Under the pieces are notes generated by a model. It saw only the letters and a program-made list of their open reading frames with translations, did no database searches and was not told the DNA's origin. The position numbers were made by a program, and so were the translations under genes. A stretch of DNA of 26,338 bases. Origin: a virus. Location: the IMG/VR virus record IMGVR_UViG_3300037486_000541, positions 1 to 26,338 of that record; one strand, written 5' to 3'. Shown here in pieces: positions 3,881 through 15,766 of this stretch; positions within the stretch are counted from its first letter, which is position 1, and each line of letters starts with the position of its first letter.

Positions 3881-5554
3881 TCAGCCTCGGACTGGCTGGG
3901 TCCCTTCCGGCGTGAGCGTGCTGGCCGTGATGACGGCCACCGGCGGCGCCCCGGTCACCGACGTGATCGGCACACTCGCCACATCGCGGCCTTCGAAATA
4001 GACATCGCCCACCGCCAGGTCGTCGAAGCAAAAAACTCCAGAATGCACATCGAAACAACAGCCGAAGGTGGTGTCGCTGTAGTTGGTCGTTTCCAAGACC
4101 TTGGCAAAGGCGGCGCCCGTTCCCGACTGACGCAGGTAGTAACGTGCGCCTGAACCAGGCTGAGTTTCGATCCGGAAATCGTAGGACAGACCGCGAGTGT
4201 AGGTTGCCACCTTGCCTCGGTCGGTTCCGTTTTCGTAGACACGCAAATCGCCATTCGCAAAATACACCGCGTAGACGAGTTGAGCGTAATTCCCCGAAGC
4301 GAGACTCGGCCTCCGAAAACCGACCATGGCATGCGTGGTCCCCGTCGGGGTGTCCACCCGGCCCTCCAACCAGCCGCCACGCTTGACCTTCAAATCGAGC
4401 GGGAAAGCCCAGGCACTACCCCAACTGCCCTGGCCCTCCAGTATCAGCTTCTCGTCCTGCTGGGCGTTGGCCACCCGCCATTGGTTAAGATCAAGATCCT
4501 TGCCGTGGAAATCGAATTGCCGGTGGTGATTCTCACTTTGGTCAAGATCGAGCTCCTGGATTACCGACGGCTGACCCGGTTCCGGCCTTACCAGGAACAT
4601 GTCGGCTCGGAGGTCCTGCACAAAGCCACTGGCCTGTTTGTGTCCCCCTCCGCCGAGCGCCTTCGCGATCACCGAACAGTCGAAGCTCGGCCGGCTGCGG
4701 AGCCCCCACTGCCGTTGGCCGTCGCCCCGGTCCATGTAGTAGCCGGCGAATGGCGAGGCGGGGTGGCGCTTGAGCAGCTCCTCACCCACCTCGGAGTAGA
4801 AGACCGTGGCATTGGCGACCGGCACAAAATACTGCTTCTCATAGCACTCGGGGCTGGTCTGGGTCAGGATCCTGGCCGGATCGTCATTCAGATCGAACAG
4901 CATCCACCGGGCATGATCGCACATGTTATCGACCATCTGCCTTTGGAGGTTGAGCGCGGTGATGCCGCCGATGATCATCTCCTCGCGTTCCCGGGTCGAT
5001 TCCATCCGGTCCATGAGCCAGTGCCAGAGATTCATCTCCATGGGCCGCGACTTGATGTAGGCGCTTATGGCGTGGCTATGGGGCAGCTTGAACAGCCAGA
5101 GATCCCGGTCTTGGAGGTACTGGATGAACATGGGCGCAGGCTTGCCGGGATTGAAGTACTCCCAGGCCAGCATGGCGCCGGATTTGGTCATGTCGAACTT
5201 GAGCGAGATGTTATTTACTCGGTTCATCTCGGTGGTCAGGTCTGTCTGGAACGTGGTTTCGTCGATCAGATTGAGGGCTTGCTTGAACGCCGGCCACGAG
5301 AGGTCCTTCTCTGCCGTTGCGTGATGGTCGAGCACTACGACTTTGTTCTGGAACGCGGCAATCTCAAGCAACACCTTGGCCGGGTAACTGAAGTCCAGGA
5401 TGTAAACGTCGCTCCCGGGATCGAGTGTGGGCGGCGCCTGGCCATAGAGCACAGGGATGTGCGTGCAGCCCGTGTCTTTGAGCGCCAGGTACGCCACCAT
5501 GGCGGCACCAAATCCGTCGAAGCAGTTTCCGTGATAGAGGATGTAGCTTTTCAT
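3881..5554 (-). CDS. DHH/DHHA1 phosphoesterase fused to a concanavalin/LamG-like domain
   Basis: The protein has 557 residues from the ATG at 5554, which overlaps the upstream stop as ATGA; a longer frame to 5719 is rejected. Residues 1-315 are a DHH-family phosphoesterase. They show HGNCFDGFGAA (8-18), an Asp at 54 in YILDFS, the DHH motif (76-78), QDRDLW (148-153) and the DHHA1 signature GGGGHKQASGF (301-311). NrnA/RecJ-type DHH enzymes cleave nanoRNA, cyclic dinucleotides or ssDNA. Residues about 340-557 add a beta-rich module (NYAQLVYAVYFANGDLRVYE, GLSYDFRIE, FGCCFDVH) resembling a concanavalin A-like/DUF1080-type sandwich, which is not a usual partner of DHH enzymes. The domain assignment of this half is by pattern only. 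Confidence 0.82.
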   Translation of the reverse strand: MKSYILYHGNCFDGFGAAMVAYLALKDTGCTHIPVLYGQAPPTLDPGSDVYILDFSYPAKVLLEIAAFQNKVVVLDHHATAEKDLSWPAFKQALNLIDETTFQTDLTTEMNRVNNISLKFDMTKSGAMLAWEYFNPGKPAPMFIQYLQDRDLWLFKLPHSHAISAYIKSRPMEMNLWHWLMDRMESTREREEMIIGGITALNLQRQMVDNMCDHARWMLFDLNDDPARILTQTSPECYEKQYFVPVANATVFYSEVGEELLKRHPASPFAGYYMDRGDGQRQWGLRSRPSFDCSVIAKALGGGGHKQASGFVQDLRADMFLVRPEPGQPSVIQELDLDQSENHHRQFDFHGKDLDLNQWRVANAQQDEKLILEGQGSWGSAWAFPLDLKVKRGGWLEGRVDTPTGTTHAMVGFRRPSLASGNYAQLVYAVYFANGDLRVYENGTDRGKVATYTRGLSYDFRIETQPGSGARYYLRQSGTGAAFAKVLETTNYSDTTFGCCFDVHSGVFCFDDLAVGDVYFEGRDVASVPITSVTGAPPVAVITASTLTPEGTQPVRG

Positions 5555-5808
5555 AGGTTGAGTCGTTTCAAGTCCAGTTCTGTCTGTTGCTCGCGGGCCT
5601 GCATATCGTCGGCAACCTCTCCGAGCATTTTGAGTTTTTCCAGTGAGGTGCATATCGATTGCATGCACTCGATTTCGTATGCAGCCTTCTCTGCCGTCAT
5701 CCGGCCGCCTTCGACCCACTTGGGGTAGACGTTTGTCCGGAGGGAGAGTTCGCGCCGTGCGCAGGCCAGCATTTCCGCGTGACTGCGGGTTGGTGTTGGT
5801 AGTTCCAT
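5551..5808 (-). CDS. Small conserved-type phage protein, 85 aa
   Basis: A mostly helical protein containing ARRELSLRTNVYPKWVEGGR, which resembles a short family seen in many phage replication operons (REL..R...YPK.V..G.M....A..EI..M..I). Its function is unknown. It begins one base after the preceding gene's stop and overlaps the DHH gene by ATGA, so it is probably co-translated with it. Confidence 0.68.
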   Translation of the reverse strand: MELPTPTRSHAEMLACARRELSLRTNVYPKWVEGGRMTAEKAAYEIECMQSICTSLEKLKMLGEVADDMQAREQQTELDLKRLNL

Positions 5809-6104: not shown

Positions 6105-8471
6105 TTACTTTCCGGCGTTGAGCGCGACGAAGAACTTCCGCGCATCCGCCCGTGTGGCCTTGCCGGCATTGGGGTGTCCCTTCTGTTGCATCACCCACCG
6201 TTGTTTGTAGGTGGCCAGTTGGAGATCCTTCTCCTTAAAAATGATGTCCAGCAGCACCGAGGCGTGGCCGCGCCCACGGACGCTGTCGAGATCCAGATTT
6301 GCCTGTACGAGGTATTTGGCCTGCGCATCAGTGACGCCTTTGGACTCCCAGACCATGGTGGGCTCGTAGAACGCGGCAGACCGGTTATCATGCTGAAGGC
6401 AGAATTCATCGGCGCTGATATATTTGGCCTTGCGATTGGCCAGCGCGGCCAGTTCTTGGCGCAGTGCAGCGGACCGTTCCTCTGCCACCTGGTCGGCCAT
6501 GTCTATGAGGTCGGCACAATCGTTGCCGTTGTCGGCTGCGAGTTGAGTGATGCAATCAGCCTCCTCGGTGTCTTTTGCCAGTAAATCGGCCGGGTGAACG
6601 ATCCTGTGTTTCTCGTGCAACCACAGGAAATCAAGCAGGAGCAGGTTCTCCTTGGTCTCGTGGATCCTAGTGCCGCGACCACACATTTGGGCGTAGAGGG
6701 GCCTGGATTTTGTGGGGCGGAGCACCAGTACGCAGTCGATGGTCGGATCATCGAAACCTTCGGTGAGCAGCATGGCGTTGCTCAGGAGATCGAACTCCCC
6801 GGCCGCAAAGCGCTCCAGGGCCTCCTTGCGATCGGATGATTCACCCGAGACGTGCTTGGCCACCAGGCCGACCTCGTTGCACGCGGCGATGAACTTGAGC
6901 GAGGTGTCGATCAGGGGCAGGAACGCCAGCACCTTGCGGAATGACGCATGCTTGCGCACCGCCTGGGCGATGGTAAACAGGTAGGGCTCGAGGGCATGTC
7001 CAAGTTCCTCGTCCGAAAAGTCGCCGGCCAGGAGGTGGACGTTGCCCAGGTCGATCTCGAGCGGCACGCTTTTGACCGTGATCGGACAGAGGTATTCCTG
7101 CCTGATCAGTTCGACCAGGGGAACGTCAATCGCCACGTTTTCGAAGAATGTCCCCAGCTTCCTCTTGTCGCCCCGGTCGGGCGTGGCAGTGACCCCCAAC
7201 ACCTGGCCGGTGAAATGGTCGAGGACCGTCTGCCAGGAATCGGAGATGGCGTGGTGGCAATTATGAACTAGGATGCCGTTGGCGAGGTAGGTGTTCCCAT
7301 TCAAGACTTCGAGATTGTAGACAAAACCTTCTGGACACAACCGCTCAAATTCGCCTCCACTTCCTGGTTCAAGAATCTCACGACTGACCATCCGAGTGAA
7401 CCTAGCAACTCGTCTTTCTTCTGGTCTTGGGCCTGCCTGGTGTAAGCCGCATGAGAGTTTCCATCCACCTCTATGGCCACTTTCAAACTTCGGTTTCCAA
7501 TATCCACCTTGTAGACAGTTGGATAGCCACTGCCTCTGGGTTGCTTGGTCCGTATCGTAATTTCCATCCCCCATCCCAGAGCCATGGCCAGAGCTTGTTG
7601 GTGAATCGGGGGCGGGTGTCCGTTCCCTCGCCTGATTGTCGGGCCCCACCCCATTGCTCTTAGTTTTGTGGACACTAATGCCCGAACAGCTGCATCGTGC
7701 ATCCCGTTCGTTTTTCTGAACTTGGTTATCTGCCCCCCGTGCTTCTTGAAGGTCTTGTTGATTGTTCGTCGGGAGAATTCCGATCTGCACTTCGGACGGT
7801 TGCAAAGCCGATTCTTGGTTGGGGTTCTGCAGATGATGCATTTCTTCATAAGGCATGATGGTAAGCACCATATCATTAGTGGTTAAGCCAATCGCCGCAA
7901 CGAATCCTTTTTCGGTCCAAACTGGATGACGCGGGGTGCAAACCAATTGACGGCCATCTTCGAAGTTGAGTCGGCATAGAATGGTCGTTTTGTTCTTGAA
8001 GACATGCGTCACAGTGCCCAAGCCCAAGTGCGTGGTCACTTCGTCAAATTGCATGATCCTCTCAATTGGGCGGCCATCAACTAACGTCCCAGGCACAAAA
8101 CATTCGTCGACCACGATCAGCCCAAAGTGATCGGCCGGCCACTTATCGAGCCGGCGAATCATGGTCTGAACCGATGCCACCACGACAGGTGCTTCCACGG
8201 AGGCTGTGAACTCCGCTTTTTCCTTCGAGGCAATGATCCCCGTGGCCATTCTAATTTTCTGAATCGCCTGGTCGATCAGCTCGTCCCGATGGGCGAGTAC
8301 CAGCGTGCGCTGAGGTAGCCGGCGAGCTGCCAACCAGGCAAAGATGCAGGTCTTGCCGGAACCAGTTGGCAAAACCGCCAGTTGTCGGTTGAATTCCTTG
8401 AATCCGATTTCAACGCGCTCGATGGTCTCTTGCTGGTAAGGCCTCGGCGACAGTTGGTTTTCCGGGCTCAA
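6105..8471 (-). CDS. SF2 DEAD/DEAH-type helicase, intein-containing precursor
   Basis: The precursor has 788 residues from a TTG at 8471 that overlaps the upstream TGA (TTGA). The frame is open to 8663, but that part lies over the preceding gene. The extein (507 residues) is a superfamily 2 helicase. It has PRPYQQETI as a Q-motif-like entry, Walker A TGSGKT (36-41), LVLAHRDELIDQA (motif Ia), motif II DECHH, VTATPDRGD (motif III), and MCGRGTRIHETKENLLLLDF (motif VI). It resembles phage UvsW-like/RadD-like DEAD-box helicases acting in recombination and replication restart. Motif II is split after DE by a 281-residue intein (precursor residues 124-404), so the helicase should be inactive until protein splicing rejoins the site. 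Upstream lie RecT-like, nuclease and candidate SSB genes. Confidence 0.88.
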   Translation of the reverse strand: MSPENQLSPRPYQQETIERVEIGFKEFNRQLAVLPTGSGKTCIFAWLAARRLPQRTLVLAHRDELIDQAIQKIRMATGIIASKEKAEFTASVEAPVVVASVQTMIRRLDKWPADHFGLIVVDECFVPGTLVDGRPIERIMQFDEVTTHLGLGTVTHVFKNKTTILCRLNFEDGRQLVCTPRHPVWTEKGFVAAIGLTTNDMVLTIMPYEEMHHLQNPNQESALQPSEVQIGILPTNNQQDLQEARGADNQVQKNERDARCSCSGISVHKTKSNGVGPDNQARERTPAPDSPTSSGHGSGMGDGNYDTDQATQRQWLSNCLQGGYWKPKFESGHRGGWKLSCGLHQAGPRPEERRVARFTRMVSREILEPGSGGEFERLCPEGFVYNLEVLNGNTYLANGILVHNCHHAISDSWQTVLDHFTGQVLGVTATPDRGDKRKLGTFFENVAIDVPLVELIRQEYLCPITVKSVPLEIDLGNVHLLAGDFSDEELGHALEPYLFTIAQAVRKHASFRKVLAFLPLIDTSLKFIAACNEVGLVAKHVSGESSDRKEALERFAAGEFDLLSNAMLLTEGFDDPTIDCVLVLRPTKSRPLYAQMCGRGTRIHETKENLLLLDFLWLHEKHRIVHPADLLAKDTEEADCITQLAADNGNDCADLIDMADQVAEERSAALRQELAALANRKAKYISADEFCLQHDNRSAAFYEPTMVWESKGVTDAQAKYLVQANLDLDSVRGRGHASVLLDIIFKEKDLQLATYKQRWVMQQKGHPNAGKATRADARKFFVALNAGK
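7260..8102 (-). mobile_element. Intein in helicase motif II (281 codons)
   Basis: The N-terminal junction is DE^CFVPGTLVDG, with Cys1 encoded at 8102-8100. The C-terminal junction is NGILVHN^CHHA, with Asn281 at 7262-7260 and Cys+1 following. Splicing blocks are clear: block A CFVPGTLV, block B CTPRHPVW (Thr56, His59), block F VYNLEV and block G ANGILVHN with penultimate His280. All catalytic residues for class 1 splicing are present. Residues about 85-200 between the splicing halves are hydrophilic and low in hydrophobic content (rich in Gln, Gly, Ser, Arg), with no in-frame LAGLIDADG or HNH domain. That stretch is the other-frame reading of the nested endonuclease ORF at 7301-7876. Confidence 0.93.
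7301..7876 (-). CDS. Out-of-frame nested Vsr/DUF559-like (EDxHD-type) homing endonuclease
   Basis: This 191-codon ORF lies wholly inside the intein on the same strand, shifted by one base. Residues 13-30 give a C-x2-C-x8-C-x4-C zinc-finger-like cluster. Residues about 75-175 match the Vsr/DUF559 nuclease pattern: a basic NGHPPPIHQQALAMALGWG region, then YKVDIGN (Asp125), AIEVDGNSH (Glu136, Asp138, His142), QAQDQKKDELL, and GWSVVRF (162-168). This fold is used by Vsr repair enzymes and by a homing endonuclease family known from fractured, split-intein phage genes. The start is uncertain: ATG at 7876, or ATG at 7849 just before the zinc cluster, neither with a strong ribosome-binding site. The inferred role is cutting intein-less helicase alleles to spread the intein. 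Confidence 0.85.
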   Translation of the reverse strand: MIWCLPSCLMKKCIICRTPTKNRLCNRPKCRSEFSRRTINKTFKKHGGQITKFRKTNGMHDAAVRALVSTKLRAMGWGPTIRRGNGHPPPIHQQALAMALGWGMEITIRTKQPRGSGYPTVYKVDIGNRSLKVAIEVDGNSHAAYTRQAQDQKKDELLGSLGWSVVRFLNQEVEANLSGCVQKVLSTISKS

Positions 8472-8962
8472 AATGGAGTGTTTCCCATCGTCCCGGTTGA
8501 TGTCGGTTTCTTGCGCAGCACGGGGTCGGGCGGCAGCACAGGGAGTTTGGGATCGGTGTTGAATGCCCCGACCTTGTTCTTGGTCACCTCGTTCCCACGC
8601 TGGGACATGTAGGTGTCGTGGATCAGGCTGGCGTGGCAGCGTAGCCCCATCGGGTTGATCCACGGGACACCCTCAGTGTCGGCCTCCTCCTTTTCAAACT
8701 CCCAGGCCTGGCCCTTCTTCATGTTTCGGATGCCGGACGCCTTGAGAAACGTGTCGATCTTCCAGATGCACGAGTCATGATCGATGAGGGCCTCTTTGAG
8801 CTTGGAATCCGTGCCCTCGATGTTGAAAACGATGTTGTATCGCTTTGACCCGTTGGTCTTCTTGCCGGTTGATATGTCCGTTGAGAATTCGAACACGCAG
8901 AGGACATAGTCCCCCTCGGGCACGACCGCGTAAGCACTTTCAGAGTCTTGGAATATTGGCAT
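8468..8962 (-). CDS. Candidate single-stranded DNA-binding protein (DUF669-like)
   Basis: This 164-residue protein has an N-terminal beta-rich region (AVVPEGDYVLCVFEFSTDIS) with SKRYNIVFNIEG, then an acidic/hydrophobic middle (GQAWEFEKEEADTEGVPWINPMGLRCHASL) and a flexible Pro-rich tail. The layout resembles DUF669-type phage proteins that sit beside annealing proteins and helicases and are thought to bind ssDNA. The sequence match is by pattern only. It follows the nuclease by two bases, and its stop overlaps the TTG start of the helicase. Confidence 0.6.
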   Translation of the reverse strand: MPIFQDSESAYAVVPEGDYVLCVFEFSTDISTGKKTNGSKRYNIVFNIEGTDSKLKEALIDHDSCIWKIDTFLKASGIRNMKKGQAWEFEKEEADTEGVPWINPMGLRCHASLIHDTYMSQRGNEVTKNKVGAFNTDPKLPVLPPDPVLRKKPTSTGTMGNTPF

Positions 8963-14015: not shown

Positions 14016-14433
14016 GGTATTCGCAGTAGGGAATGCCCAGGCTTACCACGGCAAAGCTGATGGCGGCGGCGAGGTCAGATGTCACCAGGCATGGGACCTT
14101 CCGCTTTGAAAGGGTGGTAATCACATCAGCCTGATCCTGACTCAGCTTACCGCCTGGGGCTTTGAATTCGATGCAACAGCCCCGGCCGTTCACCAGCAAA
14201 GTAAAGTCGGGGTGCCCGGGCTGAATGGTCGATTTGCGGTCGGTGCGACTGTGGACAAAACTAACTTCGTTGAGATTGCACCAGTCGATGAATTTGTTGT
14301 GAGTCTTGGTCTCCTCCCTCCGCGCCTCCTTATCGAAGACCTCGACCAGTGTTAGGGCGCCGGCCTCCTTTCGGACTTCCTTGGGCATGCACCGCCGGAT
14401 GTTCTCTGGAAGCAGGTTGGATTTGATATTCAT
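14005..14433 (-). CDS. VRR-NUC-type nuclease, 142 aa
   Basis: The start at 14433 (MNIKSNLLPENIRRC) overlaps the methyltransferase stop as ATGA. Residues about 55-120 carry a VRR-NUC/PD-(D/E)XK pattern: HPDFTLLV (Pro-Asp), GCCIEFKAPGGKLSQDQ (Glu-x-Lys followed by the conserved Lys/Ser/Gln) and a helix AVITTLSKR-like segment, then VTSDLAAAISF. VRR-NUC proteins in phages are structure-specific or Holliday-junction nucleases. Its place at the end of a sugar/methyl cassette rather than in the replication operon is unusual. Confidence 0.8.
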   Translation of the reverse strand: MNIKSNLLPENIRRCMPKEVRKEAGALTLVEVFDKEARREETKTHNKFIDWCNLNEVSFVHSRTDRKSTIQPGHPDFTLLVNGRGCCIEFKAPGGKLSQDQADVITTLSKRKVPCLVTSDLAAAISFAVVSLGIPYCEYPRA

Positions 14434-15080
14434 TTCAAGTGCCTGCAGAAGATATCCCACTGCGAATCACTGTAGCGATACGCTTCCTCGAGGTTTCCGT
14501 AGCCCAGGGAACGGAGGGACTCTTCCAGCATCTTTGGCGTGGCGCCAAATTGGGCCAAGCCCACACTGTTGAACTCGACATGGATCATCGGATGCAGCCG
14601 GCAGATCGTGTTGATGGCGCCTTGGATCGTGCGCACCTCAAAACCCTCAACGTCAATTTTAAGCAGGTCCAGCCGGTCCAGCCTGAGATCGTCCAGTCGA
14701 ATGCTGTAACGACGCCCAGGCAGGAGAGGCTTTCCTCCCATGTTGCCGCCTCTTTGATCCGTTGCGAACTGACTCCCGTCGCCCAGTGCCAGGTTGTAAC
14801 AGTGCGCATGTGGGCAATTGTGCAGGAGGCAGACGAAACTTTCCGGCCTCGGTTCAAAAGCGTGGACCTCGCATTGCCTATCAAGGAACACCTTTGCCGT
14901 GTCACCTATGAAGGCGCCGACATCGAGCACGACCATTCCCGGTCGCAATTCCTGCCACACCTTGAGGCTGTTGAATTGATCATCCCAATCCAGGCGCCCG
15001 GTCTTTCGGACGTGAAGACATGCCGTGTTGTCGTTCTTCGGAATGAGCAAACCGTGGATTTCTTCCAGATCGAAAATCAT
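14430..15080 (-). CDS. FkbM-family methyltransferase, 216 aa
   Basis: The start at 15080 (MIFDLEEIHGLL) follows the preceding stop by two bases. The SAM-binding motif VVLDVGAFIGDTAKVF, the second element VHAFEPRPESF, CYNLALGDGS, and the FkbM hallmark LDLLKIDVEGFEVRTIQGA are all visible. FkbM-type enzymes O-methylate sugars and related metabolites, so this probably methylates a glycan made by the neighbouring glycosyltransferases. A longer frame to 15191 overlaps the upstream gene and is rejected. Confidence 0.85.
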   Translation of the reverse strand: MIFDLEEIHGLLIPKNDNTACLHVRKTGRLDWDDQFNSLKVWQELRPGMVVLDVGAFIGDTAKVFLDRQCEVHAFEPRPESFVCLLHNCPHAHCYNLALGDGSQFATDQRGGNMGGKPLLPGRRYSIRLDDLRLDRLDLLKIDVEGFEVRTIQGAINTICRLHPMIHVEFNSVGLAQFGATPKMLEESLRSLGYGNLEEAYRYSDSQWDIFCRHLK

Positions 15081-15082
15081 AT

Positions 15083-15766
15083 TCAGGTTGCTTTTACGAT
15101 GCAGCAGCATCGATTGATCGGGCTCATGTCGAGGGTCGCAGTATGCAGGGCAGGACCCCACCCGGTGGCCTGAAGCATCCAGGCCAGGCATGCGGGATTG
15201 GGTGCCCAGATGGTGGTCGCATCGCCGCTGTAGACACCGCCGTCTCCATTGCTCCGCATCATCGGTGCCGGGTCGTTGTTGTGCCAGTAGGCTGTTTCCA
15301 GAAGCATGACGCCACCCTTTGCGCAGGCCCTCCGCGTCTGTCTTAGGGTGAGCATTGGATCCTCGACGTGGTAGAGCAATCCAAGGTTTTGGATGACGTC
15401 GAATTGTTTCGGGGTCGTCAAGTCGGCAACCTGGTGGACGTCAATGTGCCTGAATTCCATCTTGCTTTTCTTGATGCCGGCCGCCCACTGCGCTTGCTCC
15501 ATGATGCCGGGCTGGTCAATCCAGGTGTCGATGCCAACAATTTCAGTTGCGCCCAAACCCTCAGCCTCAAAGCCCCACGCGCCGTCGCACGTCCCCAGGT
15601 CGATGACGCTTTTGCCTGAATAGTTGATGTCTTTACGGATCGACCGGATCATGTCCCACAGCTTTGTGCCGGGGCAATAGTTTGTCGTGAAATAGCCAGG
15701 CAAGAGCTCGATGGAATGATACCACCTCAGTGAATTTGCCTTTTTGATGATTTCTTCGTTCGTCAT
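15083..15766 (-). CDS. CmoB/DUF1698-like SAM-dependent methyltransferase, 227 aa
   Basis: The N-terminus has LRWYHSIELLPGYFT, which resembles the entry of CmoB/DUF1698 proteins. A class I methyltransferase core follows: SVIDLGTCDGAWGFEAEG, IVGIDTWI, FRHIDVHQV, FDVIQNLGLLYHVEDPM and GGVMLLETAYW. CmoB itself modifies tRNA wobble uridine, but phage and cell-surface-cluster relatives often act in sugar clusters, which the context favours here. Its start overlaps the upstream stop (ATGA). Confidence 0.82.
   Translation of the reverse strand: MTNEEIIKKANSLRWYHSIELLPGYFTTNYCPGTKLWDMIRSIRKDINYSGKSVIDLGTCDGAWGFEAEGLGATEIVGIDTWIDQPGIMEQAQWAAGIKKSKMEFRHIDVHQVADLTTPKQFDVIQNLGLLYHVEDPMLTLRQTRRACAKGGVMLLETAYWHNNDPAPMMRSNGDGGVYSGDATTIWAPNPACLAWMLQATGWGPALHTATLDMSPINRCCCIVKAT

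Follow-up and report, generated by a model that had tools for sequence, protein, structure and literature searches.

Can one stretch of viral DNA serve as a protein-splicing element in one reading frame and as a homing endonuclease (HEN) in another? The question is raised by a helicase gene on the minus strand of the window, our term for the whole 26,338-nucleotide stretch that was analyzed (IMG/VR record IMGVR_UViG_3300037486_000541, positions 1 to 26,338). The original prediction placed an intein at 7260-8102 within this gene and, inside the intein, a 191-codon open reading frame (ORF) in a different phase. A check of the ORFs and of the sequence reproduced the coordinates, the frames and the motifs proposed for both.

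A predicted intein in motif II of a phage helicase

The helicase gene belongs to a phage replication region on the minus strand of the window, in which PHROG matches identified primase-like, DHH phosphoesterase, helicase, exonuclease and RecT-like genes. The helicase ORF (6105-8663, minus strand) is uninterrupted across the intein. Its start is uncertain: TTG at 8471 was assumed, and GTG at 8663 is also possible. The ORF at 3881-5719 (minus strand) encodes a DHH phosphoesterase domain at residues 55 to 369 (phrog_4771), followed by about 240 residues without a PHROGs match. PHROG matches were absent for most of the long ORFs tested on both strands between 13000 and 26338, and two methyltransferase-like ORFs lie at 14430-15766 (minus strand). 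The features read in the helicase frame are the following.

6105-8471, minus strand: SF2 helicase gene (RadD/ResIII type), intein included, 788 aa; ORF, with matches to ResIII, Helicase_C and phrog_16 flanking the intein on either side
8103-8471, minus strand: N-extein, ending ...LIVVDE (helicase motif II); sequence, ResIII match at aa 7-124, intein-free relatives
7260-8102, minus strand: intein of 281 aa, from Cys1 (8102-8100) to Asn281 (7262-7260), followed by a +1 Cys; Intein_splicing, TIGR01443, Cys1/TxxH/HN^C, Foldseek
7861-8102, minus strand: Hint N-terminal part, about aa 1-80, blocks A and B; AlphaFold2 pLDDT >90 for most residues
7407-7860, minus strand: in-frame intein linker, the same DNA being nuclease in the +1 frame; AlphaFold2, identity comparison
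7260-7406, minus strand: Hint C-terminal part, aa 233-281, blocks F and G; AlphaFold2, TIGR01443

The intein is inserted in helicase motif II, between DE and CHH (DE^CHH). The alignment with intein-free relatives of the helicase runs unbroken across this site, so that the extein flanks are conserved. All 281 intein codons are open inside the helicase ORF, and predicted splicing would leave a helicase of 507 aa. The splicing residues are present, namely C1, T56-x2-H59, H280-N281 and a Cys at +1. TIGR01443 (intein_Cterm) matched the intein above its cut-off, and the Pfam Intein_splicing match (3.7e-7) fell under the curated cut-off. The AlphaFold2 model consists of two confident Hint parts and a disordered loop; Foldseek returned the gp41-1 intein (6qaz) as the top match and also retrieved the Mtu RecA intein. 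Most of the linker was predicted to be disordered, with pLDDT <50 at aa 135-216, and profile searches of the window's intein frame gave no match to a HEN domain. The element has the open frame, the splicing residues and, in the predicted model, the Hint fold of an intein.

A nuclease encoded in the +1 frame

The features of the nested frame are listed below.

7301-7876, minus strand: nested homing-endonuclease ORF, +1 relative to the helicase frame, from ATG 7876; 191 codons and a stop, DUF559, predicted fold
7301-7849, minus strand: nuclease in its likeliest translated form, starting at ATG 7849 (MKKCIIC..., 182 aa); start position in the family
7787-7840, minus strand: nuclease zinc finger, C-x2-C ... 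C-x4-C (C13, C16, C25, C30); sequence, C16 and C30 being conserved in the family
7313-7513, minus strand: DUF559/EDxHD nuclease core; PF04480 at aa 122-188, nearest fold I-Bth0305I

The nested ORF covers 576 of the intein's 843 bases. It had been proposed to encode a Vsr/DUF559-like nuclease, and the profile comparison agreed, with a match to DUF559 (PF04480) above gathering (E=4.6e-12). The AlphaFold2 model, built from 56 sequences, reached a mean pLDDT of 92. The nearest solved folds found by Foldseek were I-Bth0305I (3r3p) and the DUF559-like 3hrl; I-Bth0305I is matched modestly in structure (E=1.3e-3, query TM 0.35) and weakly in sequence (E 0.03). Candidate catalytic residues are D125, E136, D138, H142 and D151. 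The conserved E, D, H and D fit an EDxHD/Vsr-fold core, a mapping onto the named motif that we infer. Across the family, the nuclease combines one or more zinc fingers with a conserved 'TNRKYASxRMKxNNPM' segment, with no Pfam NUMOD match. On the two models, a single piece of DNA specifies both a disordered loop and, in the second frame, a folded enzyme, in keeping with the flexible linker and the enzyme originally predicted.

The 191-codon ORF of the prediction runs from ATG 7876. The extent of the ORF stands, but ATG 7849 appears the likelier start of the protein, as it fits the conserved start position of the family better. In the close relatives L013 and L014, the nuclease begins with M(S/A)NCVIC.

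The nested layout is common in phages and bacteria

Single-sequence scans of viral contigs with either frame found nothing, and profiles were needed. A tblastn search of 50,697 phage records with either frame retrieved the same loci in 40 records, the carriers being Vibrio phages, Corynebacterium phi673 and Pseudomonas MR14. Four further nuclease queries against the phage records gave the same record number and the same three host genera, and phi673 was the only actinobacterial carrier among the phage records searched. Examination of eight phage loci showed an uninterrupted helicase ORF in each, with a nuclease ORF of 215 to 263 codons in the +1 frame. None of the eight annotated phage stretches examined had the nested gene annotated.

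Profile scans of viral contigs and bacterial genomes revealed hundreds more nuclease loci. We retained 155 strong loci from phages and bacteria, dereplicated at 90% nucleotide identity. They had been found by the nuclease sequence alone, and the state of the intein frame was therefore not preselected. Weak DUF559 loci (L122-L172), mostly ordinary stand-alone genes, were left out of the counts. At 139 of the 155 strong loci, Hint N and Hint C lay in one ORF around the nuclease, and in every one of the 139 the nuclease was offset by +1. Three more were cut by contig ends and were also +1, six had both Hint halves at +1 with stops between them (split loci), and in seven no Hint was detected. The nested layout is common rather than a single oddity, and the unsplit intein with a nuclease one base out of phase, as first proposed for the window, recurs with the same offset in every contiguous lineage. 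A sequencing or frame error, or a misassembly, is excluded by the recurrence of the +1 offset in 139 dereplicated lineages from independent data.

DUF559 matched all 56 nuclease relatives compared, and Intein_splicing matched 39 of 40 inteins. Cys1, the terminal Asn and a +1 Cys or Ser were present in 139/139 nested loci, and His-Asn in 127/139. Residues D125, E136, D138, H142 and D151 of the nuclease were likewise found in all 139, the conservation of E136 and D138 being partly preselected by scans seeded on EVDG-type motifs. Insertion was at or near motif II of many kinds of helicase (ResIII/Helicase_C, SNF2, Helicase_C_2 and AAA_34). Homologous inteins with a freely broken nuclease frame and an intact intein frame, an outcome that would have spoken against the original prediction, were not found apart from the shortened L118. 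In that locus the intein is reduced to about 200 aa and the nuclease ORF to only 101 codons, and it is probably a decaying endonuclease. L121 has a 500-aa intein and a +1 ORF of 475 codons over 95% of it, among the longest overlaps seen.

We rejected an in-frame fusion of nuclease and intein, as no strong member has one. One host protein region (alignment A4) also matches in-frame LAGLIDADG/Hom_end, perhaps reflecting a second intein in the same gene. The intein of Klebsiella phage KpTDp1 (L011) was checked for a hidden nuclease, and none was shown. The portal intein of Mycobacterium phage Cane17 (L012) was rejected as such a case, being a canonical LAGLIDADG intein.

Selection on both frames

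A chance of about 1 in 10^4 had been given for a frame of this length to stay open. This figure holds only for equal base use. With local codon usage, the probability of an open intein frame in the window is about 1e-3 given the nuclease protein, and that of an open nuclease frame is about 0.46 given the intein protein. In the window alone the case for two frames is moderate; its strength comes from the comparison of relatives.

Between Hint N and Hint C, the host frame of the 139 loci contained 0 stops in 29,797 codons, against 2,119 stops in the third frame of the same DNA; as these loci share ancestry, the pooled stop statistics are not independent and their products are not valid probabilities. 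The 25 nested loci with less than 40% GC also had 0 host-frame stops, in 5,646 codons. The six split loci, in which no read-through is needed, served as a natural control and showed 15 to 30 host-frame stops per locus over the same stretch. Across the family, when the nuclease protein and the local codon usage were taken as given, the host frame had a median probability of 2e-5 of being open. Thirteen sister pairs had 0 host stops, compared to 42 expected if the changes in nuclease codons were drawn randomly among equivalent codons.

The pattern of substitution pointed the same way. Divergence at host codon positions 1/2/3 was.16/.11/.35 in Hint-N and.26/.12/.10 in the overlap, where host position 1 is nuclease position 3. 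The shift from host position 3 to host position 1 was seen in 13 of the 13 pairs. Median identity was 40% for the nuclease readings versus 22% for the in-frame linkers of the same DNA. The selection on both frames that would follow from the original prediction is borne out by the missing host stops and by the shift to nuclease position 3, and both frames are maintained across the nested family. A chance ORF was rejected on the comparative evidence, though not by the window alone.

Probable expression of the nuclease

An ATG no more than 12 codons 5' of the first finger Cys was present in 65 of 81 lineages, compared to 18.5 expected. Shine-Dalgarno strength was greater at the nuclease ATG than at other out-of-frame ATGs (p=8e-4). 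Clear examples are L089, L113 and L114, with AAAGGAGGT upstream of the nuclease start in L089 and L114. No Shine-Dalgarno site was visible before the nuclease start in the window, and there was no good one in L013 or L014. Internal initiation is the route that these sequence features favor, because the ATG and the Shine-Dalgarno site are both enriched and because the universal +1 offset is beyond the common -1 slippage.

Probable movement and evolution of the element

Compared with Streptococcus phage helicases that have no intein and whose alignment is unbroken at the site, the helicase of the window shows about 52% identity. Its identity to the helicases of L013 and L014 is only 35 to 38%, while the nuclease of the window is 62 to 64% identical to theirs. 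Similarly, L073 and L081 share 93% identity in the nuclease and about 60% in the exteins. These patterns of identity fit a horizontal movement of intein and nuclease together, with a spread that does not follow the helicases. When L073 was compared with L060 and with L081, the nuclease and extein identities disagreed in opposite directions, which suggests recombination or replacement within the intein.

We built a quick tree of 153 nucleases, which is unrooted for the question of direction. The nuclease of the window grouped with those of L013, L014 and L023 (support 100). The six split loci (L116, L173, L174, L283, L284 and L320) formed one clade (SH-aLRT 100) among nested ones; all have a low GC content, and one member is in a Lacinutrix MAG. 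In these loci IntN ends just past Hint-N (...DELQVV and a stop) and is overlapped by the nuclease, and IntC is encoded by a separate ORF, in most cases one that starts with a conserved ATG (..SKRMRQxK..). A link to the fractured-gene arrangement had been anticipated, and the split relatives, with the same offset and in one clade, uphold it. Free-standing nucleases fell at about five scattered places in the tree. Directly upstream of an intein-free helicase, a free-standing nuclease was found at L093 (3372-3983), L183 (2498-3139) and L281 (2282-2911), and the one of L215 is possibly placed likewise. On the simplest reading, with the direction taken from an unrooted tree, the overlapping layout would be the common state and the split and free-standing forms derived from it.

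A probable mobile intein with an overlapping endonuclease

We consider it very probable that the locus is an intein made mobile by an overlapping homing endonuclease, which is translated from the same mRNA by internal initiation; splicing, cleavage, homing and initiation are steps that we infer. Read in the helicase frame, the 843 bases would encode a Hint splicing domain that bears a long flexible loop, and the intein would excise itself and restore the helicase at its DEAD box. One base further on, some 180 to 190 codons of the loop would give a zinc-finger EDxHD/DUF559 nuclease, probably through internal translation initiation on the same mRNA. The nuclease would then cut intein-free helicase genes at motif II, and the element would be copied into them.

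Other explanations account for part of these data. The nested frame could be a relic, left by an endonuclease gene that was inserted out of frame, is no longer made and is open by chance. Taken by itself the window is compatible with this, given the probability of about 0.46 and the missing Shine-Dalgarno site, and among the relatives L118 has a shortened nuclease. However, the nuclease reading is conserved better than the in-frame linker, substitutions fall at its third codon positions in every pair, its candidate catalytic residues are kept throughout the nested loci, and its model is confident; we regard a relic as improbable. It is harder still to believe that read-through of the host frame is only apparent, the locus being a split intein or an RNA-spliced intron with an incidentally open linker. 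Six relatives are genuinely split around the nuclease at the same offset, but their 15 to 30 stops each contrast with the stop-free host codons of the 139 nested loci, including those of low GC, in which full Hint N and Hint C profiles lie in a single ORF.

Somewhat more room, although not much, is left for two further explanations. Ribosomal frameshifting out of the helicase frame would produce a fusion of N-extein, IntN and nuclease. Such a shift is geometrically possible, as the nuclease frame overlaps the translated intein and extends a few codons upstream of the start, and a good Shine-Dalgarno site is missing in some members. Against it, the offset is +1 throughout and beyond the reach of the common -1 slippage, and a frameshift product would need neither the ATG before the finger nor the Shine-Dalgarno enrichment; we think frameshifting unlikely. 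We are equally doubtful that the nuclease acts in phage competition or defense and not in intein homing, roles that are not exclusive. Its position directly upstream of an intein-free helicase in three or four of six free-standing cases would suit an attack on rival alleles. Nevertheless, the element appears to move between divergent helicases and occupies motif II of several unrelated helicase families, as homing predicts.

The mobile intein with an overlapping nuclease remains our preferred reading. With well over a hundred separate phage and bacterial lineages sharing this layout, it constitutes a real class of mobile element that has largely been overlooked. On balance, we also favor a broader view, in which inteins with an overlapping HEN would be a third organization besides those with an in-frame HEN and the mini or split inteins. 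They would be widespread in phage and bacterial SF2/SNF2 helicases, missed as gene callers drop ORFs that are fully nested, and a reservoir for split-intein 'fractured genes' once the host frame gains stops.

In these elements, one DNA stretch is the loop of a splicing element and, one base over, a folded enzyme, an arrangement kept to a divergence of about 40% identity and in many phyla. As a natural data set on overlapping genes the family is both rare and large: the sequence is constrained by one frame, and the other has mainly to avoid stops. It also suggests concretely how contiguous inteins could become naturally split ones. Since the nested gene was unannotated in all eight phage stretches examined, mobile nucleases may lie hidden in inteins annotated as mini or endonuclease-less and in helicases annotated as one gene.

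Comparison with known systems

Group I introns with internal HEN ORFs are self-splicing elements whose HEN is translated as a separate ORF. The window resembles them in that a self-splicing element would carry a separately translated HEN ORF. The intron, however, leaves at the RNA level, and its HEN need not share codons with an essential frame. Canonical LAGLIDADG inteins, such as that of the Cane17 portal protein, share the Hint splicing fold and the region of HEN insertion; their HEN is part of the spliced-out polypeptide, whereas that of the window would be a separate protein from another frame. I-Bth0305I is the nearest solved fold, with the E..(D/N) and D..K region aligned, and has DNA-binding modules fused to its nuclease core, as the window's nuclease may have too. 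It differs in being catalogued as an intron-encoded protein (mobile intron) with its own gene, and its sequence similarity is weak.

Fractured genes, reportedly described by Dassa et al. in 2009, are said to contain a split intein whose halves flank an EDxHD/Vsr-like HEN. They share with the window an intein and a Vsr-fold HEN between Hint halves, and theirs is the layout of the six split relatives. In the window, by contrast, the intein is unsplit, the ORF is uninterrupted and the HEN overlaps in the +1 frame.

The literature searched gave no description of an out-of-frame HEN inside a true intein; a preprint on a 'non-canonical architecture' of actinobacteriophage inteins lay outside this search. 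Of the cases described, the one nearest to the window is the ShiLan domain (Arsenault, Gosselin and Gogarten 2025, PMC11855218), in which a methylase carries an insert that is open in the host frame and encodes an HNH nuclease out of frame. Its authors found no intein or intron splicing part and could classify it as neither (PMC11855218). Both systems are phage insertions with an open host frame, an endonuclease in another frame and a host-frame product predicted to be disordered, and the distribution of ShiLan suggests homing (PMC11855218). ShiLan differs in having an HNH nuclease and no splicing element, whereas the window combines a complete Hint intein with a DUF559/EDxHD nuclease. Inteins and EDxHD-type nucleases are each known; judging from the literature searched, what is new is their joining in an overlapping layout.
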